Assembly: GCA_007694935.1 (NCBI GenBank)
Contig: REES01000082.1
Location: 1-64,000, forward strand
Direction of reading: 5' to 3'
DNA: 64,000 nucleotides
Source: Rhodospirillales bacterium
GTDB lineage: Bacteria > Pseudomonadota > Alphaproteobacteria > Rhodospirillales > Defluviicoccaceae
Shown here: piece after piece, positions 53,546-59,077 of the stretch
How the letters are laid out: each line of letters opens with the position of its first letter
How positions within the stretch are numbered: position 1 is the stretch's first letter
Notes under the pieces: generated by a model
The model's database searches: none
Seen by the model: only the letters and a program-made list of their open reading frames with translations
What the model was told of the DNA's origin: nothing
Made by a program: the position numbers and the translations under genes

Positions 53546-54712
53546 ATGCGCGTTGCCATGTTGTCATCCGAATCCCTGCACTCGATCTCGTCCGGCGGGC
53601 TCGGCGTCCACGTGACCGAGTTGGCCGCCGGGCTGCAAAGGCGCGGGCACGACATGCACGTCATTACCCGTCGCAAGCACGACCAGAGTCACTACGACTG
53701 GATCGACGGTGTGCACTATCACCGGGTTGATCACGGCCTCAGTGACAACTTCGTGGAATGCATGGATTACATGTGCAAAGCCATGGCCCATCGCTTCCAC
53801 GAGGTCACCTCGATGGTCGGCAAGTTCGAGCTGCTGCACGCCCATGACTGGCTCAGCGCCAACGCCATGAAGTACTGCATGGACGCCTACGGCACGCCCG
53901 GTGTGCTGACCATGCACTCCACCGAATACGGCCGCGACGGCAACGTGTTCTTCGACGGCTTCGCCGCCTGGATCCGGGATGCCGAGGCCGCCGGCTGCCA
54001 CAACGCCACCGTGGTCATCGCCGTCAGCCACTTTCTCGCGGAAGAACTCCGGCGCATCTACCACGTTCCGGACGAGAAGATTCACATCGTCCCCAACGGC
54101 GTCAGCTATCACGCTTTCGACGGCTACATCGACCCGGCCGCGGTGAAAAGCCGCTACGGCGTCGCGCCATTGGTGCCGATGATCTTTTCGCCCGGCCGGA
54201 TGACCCTCCAGAAGGGCATGGACATGCTGGTGGAAGCGGTGCCAATGGTGCTCGGCTCCTATCCGGACGCCCGCTTCGTCATCGCGGGTGAGGGGCCGGA
54301 ACGGGACGCGGTGGTCCGCCGCGCCCATGAGGTGGGCGCGGCCGGGGCCATCGTGTTCCTGGAAACGGTGCCGCGCTGGCAGTACATCGACCTGATGCGC
54401 GCCTGTGACATCGTTGCCGTGCCCAGCCGCAACGAACCGTTCGGGATCGTCGTGCTGGAGGCCTGGGCGGCCGGCAAGCCGGTGGTGGCGACCCTCGCCG
54501 GCGGGCCGCGGGAATTCATCTGGCACGACGTCAACGGCTTCCTGGTCAACACCGACCCCGGCGGCCTCGCCCACGGCATCGGCTCGCTGCTGGCCGATCA
54601 CGATCATTGCCGGGCGCTGGGCGCCAACGGCCGCCGCGCGGTGGAGGACCGCTTCAACTGGGACAACGTCGCCGCCTATTCCGAGGGCGTCTATCGCATG
54701 GCGGTTCGCTAA
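53546..54712 (+). CDS. Family 4 glycosyltransferase
   Basis: This GT-B glycosyltransferase has 388 residues. The N-terminal acceptor domain contains the glycogen-synthase-like loop SSGGLGVHVTELAAGLQRRG (about residues 14-33) and LLHAHDW. The C-terminal nucleotide-sugar domain has SPGRMTLQKG near 215 and NEPFGIVVLEAWAAGKPVV near 296. Donor and acceptor are unknown. CAGGAG lies seven bases before the ATG. It is followed by an HpnL-like gene after 76 bases, and the adjacent opposing operon encodes an HpnA-like epimerase, so a glycolipid role is plausible. Confidence 0.9.
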   Translation: MRVAMLSSESLHSISSGGLGVHVTELAAGLQRRGHDMHVITRRKHDQSHYDWIDGVHYHRVDHGLSDNFVECMDYMCKAMAHRFHEVTSMVGKFELLHAHDWLSANAMKYCMDAYGTPGVLTMHSTEYGRDGNVFFDGFAAWIRDAEAAGCHNATVVIAVSHFLAEELRRIYHVPDEKIHIVPNGVSYHAFDGYIDPAAVKSRYGVAPLVPMIFSPGRMTLQKGMDMLVEAVPMVLGSYPDARFVIAGEGPERDAVVRRAHEVGAAGAIVFLETVPRWQYIDLMRACDIVAVPSRNEPFGIVVLEAWAAGKPVVATLAGGPREFIWHDVNGFLVNTDPGGLAHGIGSLLADHDHCRALGANGRRAVEDRFNWDNVAAYSEGVYRMAVR

Positions 54713-54788
54713 CAGCCTGATCGGGTGGCCGGCGGTCCGGCCCGGCCACCCGTTGCTCCCCGCGCCCGATTGGGTGCACTGTCGCGGC

Positions 54789-55787
54789 ATGTGGCGATCC
54801 TCCAAGGCCAAGCTGGCAGTCGCGGCGACATTCCTGCTGGGTCTCGGAGTCGCCATCGCCCTGATCGTCTGGAGCGGTGCCGACGCGGTGCTCACCACCC
54901 TCGCCGCCGGCGGCTGGGGCTTGGTCGGCATCGTTCCCTACTATCTGATCCCCCTGGCCGCCGCGGCGCTGTCGTGGCGGCTGCTGTTTCCGCCCGATGC
55001 GGTACCGCATTTTCGCGTCCTGTTGCAGGCGACCTGGATCGGCCTTGCCATCAACTGGCTGCTGCCGGTGGCGCAGCTCGGCGGCGAGGTGGTGAAGGCC
55101 CGGCTGGTGATGGGCCGGCACAGCCGCACCGCCCCGGCGGTGGCGAGCGTCGTGGTCGACCAGACCCTGCAGATTGCAAGCCAGGTCGTCTACGCCCTGG
55201 CCGGGGTGGTCCTCCTGCTGGTCCTGGTGGCCGGCCAGGGGGCGTTCAGCATGGCCGCGCTCGGGTTCGCCCTGCTTCTCGCGATCGGGCTCTACGCCTT
55301 CTACCGCGTTCAGCGCCTCGGCATGTTCGGCGTGCTTGCCCGGGCGGTGCAGCGCTTTACCCGCAGCGACCAAGCCGGCCGCGCGGCGGAGCGGGCAGAC
55401 GATCTGGATCGTCGCGTCACCGAGGTCTACGGCCGCCGGCCGCGCCTGGGCGCGGCCCTGGCCTGGCGGCTGGCCTTCCGCGTCGCGACCGTCGGCGAGA
55501 TCTGGCTGGCGCTCTGGCTGATGGGCCATCCCGTCAGCCTTGCCGAAGCGATGATCCTGGACAGTCTGGGCCAGGCGGTGCGCTCGGCCGCGTTCGCCAT
55601 TCCCGCCGGAATCGGCGCCCAGGAGGGCGCGTTCGTGGCGATCAGCGTCGCACTGGGCCTGCCCCCCCAGGCCGGCATCGCCGTCGCCCTGGCCCGCCGC
55701 TTTCGCGAACTGGCGGTGGGTGTGCCGGCCCTGGTCGCCTGGCAGGTGACCGAAGCCCGGGCCCTGCGGGGACCGGAACCACGCTGA
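54789..55787 (+). CDS. HpnL-like lysylphosphatidylglycerol synthase-type membrane protein
   Basis: This polytopic protein of 332 residues has about eight hydrophobic helices and belongs to the LPG-synthase transmembrane/UPF0104 superfamily. The conserved segments are SWRLLFPPDAVPHFRVLLQA near residue 59, NWLLPVAQLGGEVVKARLV near 95 and AFAIPAGIGAQEGAFVAISV near 269. The nearest named group I recall is HpnL, found with hopanoid genes. A flippase or lipid-binding role is inferred. Its stop abuts the convergent hpnA-like gene with no spacer. Confidence 0.78.
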   Translation: MWRSSKAKLAVAATFLLGLGVAIALIVWSGADAVLTTLAAGGWGLVGIVPYYLIPLAAAALSWRLLFPPDAVPHFRVLLQATWIGLAINWLLPVAQLGGEVVKARLVMGRHSRTAPAVASVVVDQTLQIASQVVYALAGVVLLLVLVAGQGAFSMAALGFALLLAIGLYAFYRVQRLGMFGVLARAVQRFTRSDQAGRAAERADDLDRRVTEVYGRRPRLGAALAWRLAFRVATVGEIWLALWLMGHPVSLAEAMILDSLGQAVRSAAFAIPAGIGAQEGAFVAISVALGLPPQAGIAVALARRFRELAVGVPALVAWQVTEARALRGPEPR

Positions 55788-56777
55788 TCATCGGGGCAGG
55801 GGCTTCTTGAGCATACCCTCGGCAGCGAGCCACGCCACCGTGTCGGCCAGGGTCTCGTGGAGGGGCCGGAGATCGATGCCGAGGTCGGAGAGCGGACGGG
55901 CCAGCTCCGGCGCGGCCGGGCGGCGGGTCAGCCGCACGCCGCTGAGGGGCGCCGTGGGCGGCTTCCGGGTGATGAAGTCGGCCACCATCTCGGAAACCGC
56001 AGCGGCAGCAAGTGCCACCGGGTACGGCACCTTGAACCGGGGCATGGCGAGGCCGGTCACTTGCCCCAAAGTGGCGAGCACCTCCGACAGCGGCAGCGGC
56101 GGGCTTCCCAAAAAGTACCTTCGGCCCGGTCGTCCGACCTCGGCCGCCCGCAGATGCCCGCTGGCAACATCCCGCACGTCCGCGAGACTCACCGGGAAAT
56201 CGACGAAGGCCGGGGTGGTGCCGTTGACGAAGTCGCGGATCATGCGGGTCGGCGGCGTGCACGATCGGTCCCCGGGACCCAGCGGCAGGGTCGGGTTGAC
56301 GATCACCACCTCCTGGCCTCGCTTGGCCGCAGCCATGGCGGCCTCCTCGGCCAGAAACTTGGACCGGCAGTAGGGACCCGGCATGTCGTCCAGGGTGGGC
56401 AGCGCGACGGTCGACCGCTGCCGCAGGGGGTAGAACAGGATCGCGCCGGTGGAGGTATGCACCACCCGCTTCACGCCCGCCTCGGCCGCGGCCGCCAGCA
56501 CCACCTCGGTGCCGTGATGGTTGACGGCCTCGTAATCCGCCTTGTTGGGGATCCAAAGGCTCGGAATGCCGGCAACATGGAAGACCCGCTCCACCCCCGC
56601 CATGGCGCGCCGCACCGTATCCCGATCGGTGACCGACCCGGTGACGGTCTCGACCCGGTCCGGAAGGCCTTCGAATGGCGCAATGTCCAGCACCCGGACA
56701 CGCCGACCCTCCCGGACCAGCGCGGCAACCACATGCCCGCCGATGAAGCCGCCGCCACCGGTGACCAGATCGGTCAC
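55788..56777 (-). CDS. HpnA-like NAD-dependent sugar epimerase/dehydratase
   Basis: This 329-residue extended short-chain dehydrogenase has the NAD motif TGGGGFIGGHV at residues 6-16 and YCRSK near residue 135 as the catalytic Tyr-x3-Lys. HTSTGAILFYP and WIPNKADYEAVNHHG resemble the hopanoid-associated sugar epimerase group (HpnA). Substrate is unknown. GTG is the start; it overlaps the upstream PON-like gene's stop by four bases. No squalene-hopene cyclase gene is in the window. Confidence 0.83.
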   Translation of the reverse strand: MTDLVTGGGGFIGGHVVAALVREGRRVRVLDIAPFEGLPDRVETVTGSVTDRDTVRRAMAGVERVFHVAGIPSLWIPNKADYEAVNHHGTEVVLAAAAEAGVKRVVHTSTGAILFYPLRQRSTVALPTLDDMPGPYCRSKFLAEEAAMAAAKRGQEVVIVNPTLPLGPGDRSCTPPTRMIRDFVNGTTPAFVDFPVSLADVRDVASGHLRAAEVGRPGRRYFLGSPPLPLSEVLATLGQVTGLAMPRFKVPYPVALAAAAVSEMVADFITRKPPTAPLSGVRLTRRPAAPELARPLSDLGIDLRPLHETLADTVAWLAAEGMLKKPLPR

Positions 56778-57970
56778 GGCCGTCGCGCCGAGGCTTGGGC
56801 CTCCGCCTCCCCGGCGGCATAGCGGCAGACGGCGAGCCCGGTATCGGTCACCGAGCCCATGATCAGCCGGTCGTCGTAGACGGCGGCCACGGTTGCCGCG
56901 GACAACAGCGGTGGCTGTTCCCGCGAGCGGTAGATCTGCTGCACCGAACCGTCGCGAGGATCAACCCGGACGACGTGGCTCGGGGCGATGGCGCCGGGCC
57001 ACCAGCGATAGCGATAGAGGGCGAGGCGGAACAGGGACGGATGGGACGCGGCGAGAAGCCCGCCGGCACCATCCCACATCAGGTTGTCAGGCCCGGTGCC
57101 GAGCCGGAACACCGCATCCGGGGCTTCCGCGGGCGCTTCCTGCAGACGGTCGCGGCGAAATACCAGGATGGCGTTGGCCCGGGTGGCGGCGACGTAGAGG
57201 TGCTCATCATTCACGGCCAGGCCGTTGGCGAATCGGATGCCTTCCGCCACGGTGGTGATGCGTGGGCCGTCCTCACCGCCCTCCAGGACAACCCGCACCA
57301 CGGAAGCCCGGTCCAGTCCCGCCACCAGTTCCAGCCATCTGCCCCGGGCCGAACAGGCCCCGGTATCGTTGCTGACATAGAAGCGGTCGGATGCGACGCC
57401 GACGATGCCGTTGGCCTGACACACCAAAGGCCCCTCGACGGTGAGTCGGTGGTGCAATGCCGTGCCGTGGACATCGAACACCTCGATCGAAGGGTCCATC
57501 ACCCACCGGGGGCGCCGGCCATCGCCGCCGTCGCGCACATAGCGCCGGTTGACGACGAACAGGGTGCGGCGGCCATCGTCGCCGACAAACAGGTCGATCC
57601 CGTGGGGATGAAATGGCCGATCCGCCTTGAACGCCCGGGCGGCATCGACCACCGTCGCCTGCCCGCCGGTGAGGGACGACGCGTCCAGCGCCAGCCAGTA
57701 GAGGCCACCTTCCGGCAGATCATCCGCCCCGGTCCTGGCCGCAGCCTCAACCTGCCAGCGGTCCTGCGCCGGCAGCCAGGCGATCCCGGCCTCGCGATCC
57801 ACGGCCAGATCCTGGACCCCGGCGATCGGCCGGCCCGTGACGGAATCGGTCAGCAGCAGACGGCGACAATCCGAGGCGAGTTCTGTCTCGGCAGCACCGT
57901 GATCGCCGCAGCCGGCGAGCATCATTGCCCCGGCCATGGCGATCGCCGCCCATGCATGCCGTCCCGGCAC
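56774..57970 (-). CDS. Paraoxonase/SMP-30-like beta-propeller lipoprotein
   Basis: This 398-residue protein has a lipoprotein signal (MAGAMMLAGC, Cys21) and a six-bladed-propeller sequence resembling paraoxonase-type arylesterases/lactonases: QANGIVGVASDRFYVSNDTG, AEGIRFANGLAVNDEHLYVA and TGPDNLMWDGAGGLLAASHP carry the Asn/Asp positions that hold calcium in PON1. An active lactonase is inferred, not shown. It starts six bases after the sulfotransferase stop, and its stop overlaps the hpnA-like start, so the three form one operon. Confidence 0.8.
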   Translation of the reverse strand: MPGRHAWAAIAMAGAMMLAGCGDHGAAETELASDCRRLLLTDSVTGRPIAGVQDLAVDREAGIAWLPAQDRWQVEAAARTGADDLPEGGLYWLALDASSLTGGQATVVDAARAFKADRPFHPHGIDLFVGDDGRRTLFVVNRRYVRDGGDGRRPRWVMDPSIEVFDVHGTALHHRLTVEGPLVCQANGIVGVASDRFYVSNDTGACSARGRWLELVAGLDRASVVRVVLEGGEDGPRITTVAEGIRFANGLAVNDEHLYVAATRANAILVFRRDRLQEAPAEAPDAVFRLGTGPDNLMWDGAGGLLAASHPSLFRLALYRYRWWPGAIAPSHVVRVDPRDGSVQQIYRSREQPPLLSAATVAAVYDDRLIMGSVTDTGLAVCRYAAGEAEAQASARRP

Positions 57971-57976
57971 GGGCCT

Positions 57977-59077
57977 TCAGGCCGGAGCAAGGGCGACGTC
58001 GGGCCGGCCGTAGCCCCAACGCTCCAGGAATGCCCCCCAGCGGCCCTCGACCTTGGCCAACATGTCATCGGTATAGGCGAACCGGTTTTTGCGATAGCCG
58101 GCGATCCCGGCCAGGTAGCGCTCGTACTCGGGACGAACGGCCGCGAACGCGCCGAGGTCGAGCGAGCCGTAGACCCGGGCAAGCTCGGCGATCGGATCAC
58201 GCTCGAGGTCCTCGTAGCGGATCTCGACGAACACGTCTTCAGGCAGGCCGTCACTGTCGGCGATCACGGCCTGCATCATCCGGTCGTAGGTCGCCAGGAT
58301 GAGTTCGTCGATCGCGAGGCCGTCATAGTCCTGCAAGGCGAACTGCTCCAGCAGTTTTTCGAAGAAATTCTGCATGGACCGAAAAACTTCGTAGGGGTTG
58401 CGATAGACGTGGATGAATCGCGCATCCGGAAAGATTTGCCGGATCATGGCGATCCGGGCCGTATAGACCGGGTTCTTGATCACCAGGCGACGTTGATCCT
58501 GGTCGAGCCAGACCTTATGCAGGAAATAAACGAATGCCCGCTGCCACGCGGCGATCTCCTCGGCGGAACATCCGTCAAGAAATACCCCGCGATTGAAGTT
58601 GCGCCCGAAATTACGAGGAAAGTACAACCCATGATAAAACGACAGCGGCGTCATGTTGGCCAGCGCCACCTCGTCTTCCTGCGGCGAATCCGGCTTGACC
58701 GGAATGGAATCGATGTATCGGTCGCGCGGCAACGCCCGCTCCAGCATCGGCCGGCATAGCGCGACCAGTCCCAGCAGATCCCAGGGCAGTCCGGCCGCCA
58801 GTGGCGAGACATAGCCGAAGCCGCCTTTGCTAAGGATATTGTAGAGATGGGTGGTGCCGCTCCGCCAGTGGCCGACGACGAACACCGGCGCCGGCATCGG
58901 CCCGGCCCGGCGCAGCCGGCGCGCCACCACGACCTTTTCCGCCGCCGACAGCGGCCAGCGTCCCAGCGCGGCGGCCACGGCGGTCGCGGCTTGCGGCATA
59001 CGCCGGGGCGATACCCCGCCATTCTCCCAAATCACCCGGACCAAGGTGGCGAGGTTGCTGCCGCTGAGGGGGTGCAT
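57977..59077 (-). CDS. Sulfotransferase family protein
   Basis: This 366-residue enzyme likely transfers sulfate from PAPS. The 5'-phosphosulfate loop reads VGHWRSGTTHLYNIL at residues 68-82, and the 3'-phosphate motif is YRNPYEVFRS near residue 223. It resembles bacterial carbohydrate/lipid sulfotransferases of the Sulfotransfer_3 type. The ATG at 59077 excludes a 20-residue leader. It is the first gene of the three-gene minus-strand operon with the PON-like and HpnA-like genes. Confidence 0.88.
   Translation of the reverse strand: MHPLSGSNLATLVRVIWENGGVSPRRMPQAATAVAAALGRWPLSAAEKVVVARRLRRAGPMPAPVFVVGHWRSGTTHLYNILSKGGFGYVSPLAAGLPWDLLGLVALCRPMLERALPRDRYIDSIPVKPDSPQEDEVALANMTPLSFYHGLYFPRNFGRNFNRGVFLDGCSAEEIAAWQRAFVYFLHKVWLDQDQRRLVIKNPVYTARIAMIRQIFPDARFIHVYRNPYEVFRSMQNFFEKLLEQFALQDYDGLAIDELILATYDRMMQAVIADSDGLPEDVFVEIRYEDLERDPIAELARVYGSLDLGAFAAVRPEYERYLAGIAGYRKNRFAYTDDMLAKVEGRWGAFLERWGYGRPDVALAPA

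Follow-up and report, generated by a model that had tools for sequence, protein, structure and literature searches.

What do the five genes that converge between positions 53546 and 59077 of contig REES01000082.1 do, and do they act together? The contig belongs to a Rhodospirillales bacterium of the Defluviicoccaceae (assembly GCA_007694935.1); its positions 1 to 64,000 on the forward strand, the whole stretch of DNA analysed, are called the window below. A preliminary description, made from the sequence alone, had read the five genes as one pathway that assembles, moves and sulfates a sugar-lipid. We find that three of them, coding for a sulfotransferase (ST), a paraoxonase-like (PON-like) lipoprotein and a short-chain dehydrogenase/reductase (SDR), form a conserved and widespread cassette. 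This cassette is probably devoted to the tailoring of hopanoids; the ST would sulfate one of them. Hopanoids, which in bacteria correspond to cholesterol, serve as molecular fossils and as a model for how sterols function. The five genes, cassette first, are:

57977-59077, minus strand: ST of the PAPS (3'-phosphoadenosine-5'-phosphosulfate) type, Sulfotransfer_3 family, PF13469 (Pfam 9.8e-34), first gene of the cassette
56774-57970, minus strand: PON-like six-bladed propeller lipoprotein, predicted to be exported (PON1 sequence match, AlphaFold fold, lipobox seen by eye)
55788-56777, minus strand: HpnA-like extended SDR (Epimerase/3Beta_HSD; TIGR03466 under cut-off; tree of 122 SDRs)
54789-55787, plus strand: HpnL family membrane protein (LPG_synthase_TM, PF03706; TIGR03476 at 290.1 bits, over the cut-off of 195.65), loosely tied to the cassette and probably belonging to the hopanoid system at large
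53546-54712, plus strand: GT4 glycosyltransferase (Pfam PF00534 and PF13439, plus NCBIfam), a neighbour, probably outside the cassette

The open frames, strands, gaps and overlap are as first described: six bases separate the ST from the PON-like gene, which overlaps the start of the SDR by four bases; the SDR stop abuts the stop of the convergent HpnL gene with zero spacer, and 76 bases lie between GT4 and HpnL. The genus's other genome has the five genes in the same order, at 71-92% identity, and the layout is therefore not due to chance. A scan for tRNAs found two, which are irrelevant to the cassette.

That the minus-strand trio is one unit, as had been proposed, is borne out in relatives. 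Our collection of 84,980 species genomes holds at least 582 relatives of the ST, of which the best 80 loci were analysed; models for the PON and the SDR were built from the same 80 loci, with the window proteins as seeds. A PON-like gene stands beside the ST in 59 of the 80 loci, in every one of the 59 downstream and on the same strand. An SDR of the cassette kind is near the ST in 73, either downstream on the same strand (55 loci), divergent upstream (17) or placed otherwise (1).

The question then arises as to which pathway the cassette serves. Core hpn genes (SHC, the squalene-hopene cyclase, and HpnB, D, E, G, H, N and M) were counted within 10 kb of the ST by blastp at E 1e-15 and half coverage, which may undercount them. 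At least one was found in 54 of the 80 loci and at least three in 43; among the 42 loci of at least 19 kb, these numbers are 35 and 28. HpnG is near the ST in 30 loci, HpnH in 28, HpnN in 22, and HpnM and SHC in 17 each. In the single-contig genome G407 the order is HpnN, ST-PON-SDR, HpnB, HpnD, HpnE, SHC, HpnG, HpnH; in G194 the cassette runs directly into SHC, HpnG and HpnH; and in the hopanoid cluster of Azospirillum brasilense Sp 7 one reads SDR, HpnM, ST, PON, HpnN, SHC, HpnG, HpnH. This linkage in relatives is evidence for a tie to hopanoids. HpnCDE near the ST was rejected as proof of a hopanoid role, because hpnCDE also serves carotenoids.

Co-occurrence at the genome scale points the same way. 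Twenty-five ST host genomes were hand-picked from the 80 loci, mostly named isolates and members of distant phyla; SHC is matched in every one and passes the cut-off in 24. They include Cyanobacteriota, Planctomycetota, Verrucomicrobiota, a Bacteroidia metagenome-assembled genome (MAG) and a halomonad. HpnH is found in 23, both exceptions being Verrucomicrobia. In a class-level control of 385 drawn genomes (ST at E 1e-20, SHC at E 1e-100), the ST was found in 11 and SHC in 103. SHC is present in 11 of 11 ST-positive and in 92 of 374 ST-negative genomes (Fisher p 3.3e-7; this p value and the next overstate independence, because the 11 genomes span six families, kinship is ignored and one of them is a contig-end fragment). 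None of the 11 ST-positive genomes has a canonical HpnA over the cut-off, compared with 76 of the 92 genomes with SHC and no ST (p 6.5e-8). The PON adjoins the ST in 8 of the 11; in G073, ST and SDR adjoin and the PON is on another contig.

The window genome itself has an SHC cluster, in which HpnB, D, E, H and N exceed their cut-offs and HpnG narrowly misses its own (184.0 versus 187.1 bits). The preliminary description, which took a hint of hopanoids from the names HpnA and HpnL and proposed looking for SHC elsewhere in the genome, was thus right on this point, for the SHC and hpn genes are there, on another contig than the window, and the linkage is conserved in relatives. The presence of SHC in the window genome was nevertheless rejected as proof, since 19 of the 21 genomes searched in its order have the gene: SHC is nearly universal there, and on its own it is no evidence.

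The third gene of the cassette codes for the HpnA-like SDR. The window SDR scores 302.7 bits against the HpnA model TIGR03466, under the cut-off of 367.65, and does not qualify as a member; four other cassette SDRs score 286-354 bits. A quick tree of 122 SDRs with SH-aLRT support was made, in which canonical HpnA was represented by the 30 top scorers from 80 genomes that exceed the cut-off. Rows shorter than 230 residues were left out, as were L042, L049, L052, L218 and L219 (outside the 80 loci, or repeats), and three of the seven SDRs from the window's own genome were entered. The 30 canonical HpnA form one clade (support 99), and 74 cassette SDRs fall outside it, in a sister clade (support 100). 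The latter holds eight further rows: six have no ST in their vicinity, one adjoins a PON but no ST, and one is distant. Together with the class control, this pattern makes it seem that the cassette SDR replaces canonical HpnA. The reading of the SDR as a sugar epimerase was set aside: that name stems from the model, and the best PDB match, 3wj7, is a putative oxidoreductase. Cassette-clade SDRs with no ST or PON nearby occur at L200, L201, L202, L203, L204 and L205, and at L202 HpnM and HpnN are close by. At L207 (6459-8539) a cassette-type SDR comes immediately after a PON-like gene and an adjoining ST is lacking; the genome has both canonical HpnA and SHC. In both the SDR and the ST tree, the cassette of L130 (record title: Oceanobacillus sp. 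HTM 045) falls among rows from Paracoccaceae and other Alphaproteobacteria, and it is probably a contamination.

The family assignments GT4, HpnL-like, HpnA-like and sulfotransferase were all upheld by Pfam or NCBIfam profile matches. The ST scores 117.9 bits against PF13469 (cut-off 27) and belongs to this domain family. An alignment of ten relatives shows conserved GHWRSGTTHLYN and RNPxxVFxS blocks, which we take to be the PAPS-binding loops. No signal peptide is seen by eye, and the enzyme is therefore taken to be cytosolic. The closest solved folds are STF9 and STF1 of Mycobacterium; the fold matches also include the sulfotransferase domains of the curacin and Synechococcus olefin-synthase systems, the latter (4gox) being a sequence match as well.

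For the PON-like protein, Pfam and NCBIfam gave no match at E 0.001. Its assignment is sustained by PON1, the best sequence match in the PDB (7.8e-13), and by its predicted structure: the AlphaFold model, built on 36 sequences, has a mean pLDDT (predicted local distance difference test) of 91.6, and in a Foldseek search the ten best matches are PON1 entries, followed by strictosidine synthases. The modelled window protein is thus a six-bladed propeller with PON1 as its nearest fold (E 9.2e-22, probability 1.00). Its N-terminus carries the lipobox LAGC, a lipoprotein signal recognised by eye. Presuming that E53, D54, N168, D169, N224, D269 and N270 are the calcium/metal ligands of PON1 under these residue numbers, most are kept in the 36 aligned sequences: N168, N224, D269, N270 and D54 in all 36, E53 in 34 and D169 in 29.

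A scheme can be proposed from these elements. SHC, HpnH and HpnG would make a ribose-tailed hopanoid by the known pathway, whose genes are in the window genome (HpnG below its cut-off). The SDR might then alter the redox state of the tail, for instance by turning ribosylhopane into a lactone or an alcohol. Judging from its family and linkage, the cytosolic ST would transfer sulfate from PAPS to a hopanoid hydroxyl, giving an anionic hopanoid. Transport of the HpnN type could carry the lipid outward, and in the periplasm the exported PON-like protein may act on it, most simply by opening a lactone; this is the weakest step. What our analysis shows directly is gene order, conservation, linkage, SHC co-occurrence, the absence of canonical HpnA and the folds; the acceptor, the order of steps and the PON reaction are inferred.

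Several other scenarios must be weighed against hopanoid sulfation. The earlier proposal of five genes that jointly assemble, move and sulfate a glycolipid has in its favour that the five are syntenic in both genomes of the genus. However, GT4 adjoins an ST of the cassette type in only one of the 80 loci, from the window's own genus. A search of 41 genomes, the window's own among them, found GT4 in three; the third of these, G008, has neither ST nor PON of the cassette kind, and HpnL is absent from the 7 kb that precede GT4 and from the 3.7 kb between GT4 and the contig end. HpnL adjoins the ST in three of the 80 loci (blastp, E 1e-15, half coverage). The preliminary description had itself asked whether relatives carry the five genes scattered, and the answer is divided: GT4 is separable and HpnL loose, but the trio, whose co-occurrence across genomes it had also wished to see, mostly stays together (PON and SDR counts above). 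The five-gene pathway was consequently rejected, as GT4 is not conserved with the other genes, and we regard it as the least probable of the scenarios; a hopanoid is more likely than a glycolipid to be the acceptor. Two of the HpnL neighbourhoods may be mentioned: in a halomonad (L136, 7756-11122) HpnL adjoins the ST and, as in the window, converges with the SDR; in a Phycisphaera MAG (L077, 8850-11086) HpnL lies directly before the ST. The cassette might also modify some other envelope target and merely travel with hopanoid clusters. Sulfotransfer_3 enzymes are diverse, and PON-family matches (E 1e-20) occur in 36 of the 374 ST-negative genomes of the class control. Yet hitchhiking hardly explains co-occurrence with SHC in distant phyla or the absence of canonical HpnA, and we consider this scenario very unlikely. 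Scarcely more credible is one in which the cassette does act on a hopanoid, with the sulfate serving as a leaving group that aids elimination or dehydration of the side chain, so that the sulfated lipid would not be a stable product. Sulfate-activated elimination is the chemistry of the curacin and Synechococcus olefin-synthase systems, where a sulfotransferase acts with a thioesterase, and both are among the matches listed above; but none of the three cassette genes codes for a thioesterase or decarboxylase, and the closest folds are the mycobacterial ones.

The main rival makes a squalene-derived C30 carotenoid the substrate of the ST, the hpn link then being due to the squalene shared through HpnCDE. 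The carotenoids of A. brasilense Sp7 are made via squalene by hpnCDE, according to the available part of PMC13274349. Moreover, a related ST, 43-47% identical to that of A. brasilense, sits in C30 carotenoid operons, a point which also weighs against hopanoid sulfation: on plasmids of A. oryzae and A. ramasamyi (L235, 7962-9074, and L237, 5962-7104) it comes last in a run of crtI-crtI-acyltransferase-glycosyltransferase-ST. Such runs suggest sulfated C30 glyco-carotenoids, and lipids derived from squalene may therefore be the substrates of the wider ST group. However, HpnG, HpnH, HpnN, HpnM and SHC, which recur near the ST, have no known part in carotenoid synthesis, SHC was present in all 25 ST genomes tested, and the five genes of the L235 carotenoid run have no match in the 11 ST loci that were examined, of which four are short. 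A tree of 88 STs separates 82 cassette-type STs from three carotenoid-type STs by a branch with support 97/96, although the outgroup branches are long. (In this tree L135, which has a PON and no SDR, is labelled a full cassette, L033 was left out, and L021 and L022 are so distant that their placement is meaningless.) Altogether, we find the carotenoid scenario unlikely.

Published hopanoid chemistry bears on hopanoid sulfation in both directions. In its available extracts, a 2025 study of more than 6000 alphaproteobacterial genomes (PMC12583986) calls the functions of hpnA, hpnB, hpnL and hpnM elusive, sees no other candidate genes evident near hpn clusters, and reports that the enzyme converting ribosylhopane to bacteriohopanetetrol is not established. 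It lists three species with hopanoid polyol genes but no Rohmer product, Microvirga massiliensis, A. brasilense Sp 7 and Skermanella aerolata 5416T-32. The last two carry the ST, a match that we take as a lead and not as a test. Against it, the authors, who detected adenosylhopane as the sole hopanoid polyol derivative in A. brasilense Sp 7, explain the result by this compound, which yields no Rohmer products (PMC12583986, same extracts); as that explanation suffices, the Sp 7 result needs no sulfation. For M. massiliensis and S. aerolata they suggest detection limits, and their ultra-high-performance liquid chromatography-mass spectrometry detected hopanoid polyols in intact form, cyclitol ethers among them, in S. 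aerolata (PMC12583986). The Skermanella ST stands alone, with no PON or SDR within 10 kb, and its neighbour in the tree is a second ST copy of G443.

Further observations count against hopanoid sulfation or parts of it. In two Verrucomicrobia (L133 and L134), ST and SDR adjoin and cyclase genes are present without HpnH, so that in these two the acceptor cannot be the ribose-tailed hopanoid that HpnH makes. The window PON and its genus sister carry Q and G where PON1 has E53 and D169, and the activity of the PON in this genus is in doubt for this reason. Among the 21 ST loci without an adjoining PON, 13 belong to genomes with none at E 1e-15; in the other eight, a member of the family is found elsewhere in the genome, and three of these members match as strongly as cassette PONs do. 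In the window genome, cassette and SHC cluster lie on different contigs, SHC is found throughout most of the order, as noted, and 4 of 100 relatives have the ST at E 1e-20.

As to precedents, searches of the open-licence PMC literature turned up no paper that treats paraoxonase, sulfotransferase and hopanoid together, or sulfated hopanoids, which, given that scope, is not proof of absence. Thirteen papers mention both hopanoids and sulfotransferases, and one of these, PMC5472815, mentions HpnA as well; among the related open-licence titles listed, none describes a cassette or lipid of this kind. The ST-PON-SDR cassette, conserved in many hpn clusters, is a candidate gene set of the kind not evident in the extracts of PMC12583986. 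According to our analysis, sulfated hopanoids may be made by some bacteria and have so far not been looked for. If this is true, they would add a new class to the known anionic membrane lipids; the reading of missing hopanoids in cultures and sediments would change, and the role of the HpnA group could be tested directly in a tractable soil bacterium. We would go further only tentatively: it is possible, though doubtful, that an undescribed and widespread branch of hopanoid synthesis adds a sulfate and, after lactone opening by the paraoxonase, a carboxylate, giving a bacterial counterpart of cholesterol sulfate. Rohmer degradation and positive-ion methods could miss such anionic hopanoids, and that would account for hopanoid-gene-positive species that seemingly lack the usual polyols.

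How does the cassette compare with known systems? Its ST is likened to mycobacterial STF9 and STF1 (2z6v, 2zq5), the closest solved sulfotransferase folds, on the basis of structure, at 17% identity. The carotenoid-operon STs of L235 and L237 are 43-47% identical to the A. brasilense cassette ST and also belong to an operon for a squalene-derived lipid, but no PON or SDR is annotated in the stretch shown and they lie on the opposite side of the supported branch. Serum paraoxonase PON1 (1v04) shares with the PON-like protein the fold, most metal ligands and export, at 23% identity. PON1 has one disulfide, whereas the PON-like family has a second invariant cysteine pair; the position of His134 is Arg in 35 of 36 family members, and the window copy has lost two acidic ligand positions. 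HpnA (TIGR03466), a hopanoid-associated sugar epimerase of unknown function, is the best NCBIfam match of the SDR over its full length; unlike it, the window SDR falls below the cut-off, belongs to the sister clade and is of a kind usually paired with an ST. The system as a whole most resembles the hpn hopanoid cluster (HpnA-HpnN). It differs from it by the added ST and PON-like genes, absent from the gene set in the available extracts of PMC12583986, and by lacking canonical HpnA in all 11 ST-positive genomes of the class control; it shares with it the same surrounding genes in many relatives, and an SDR and an HpnL that resemble hpn families.

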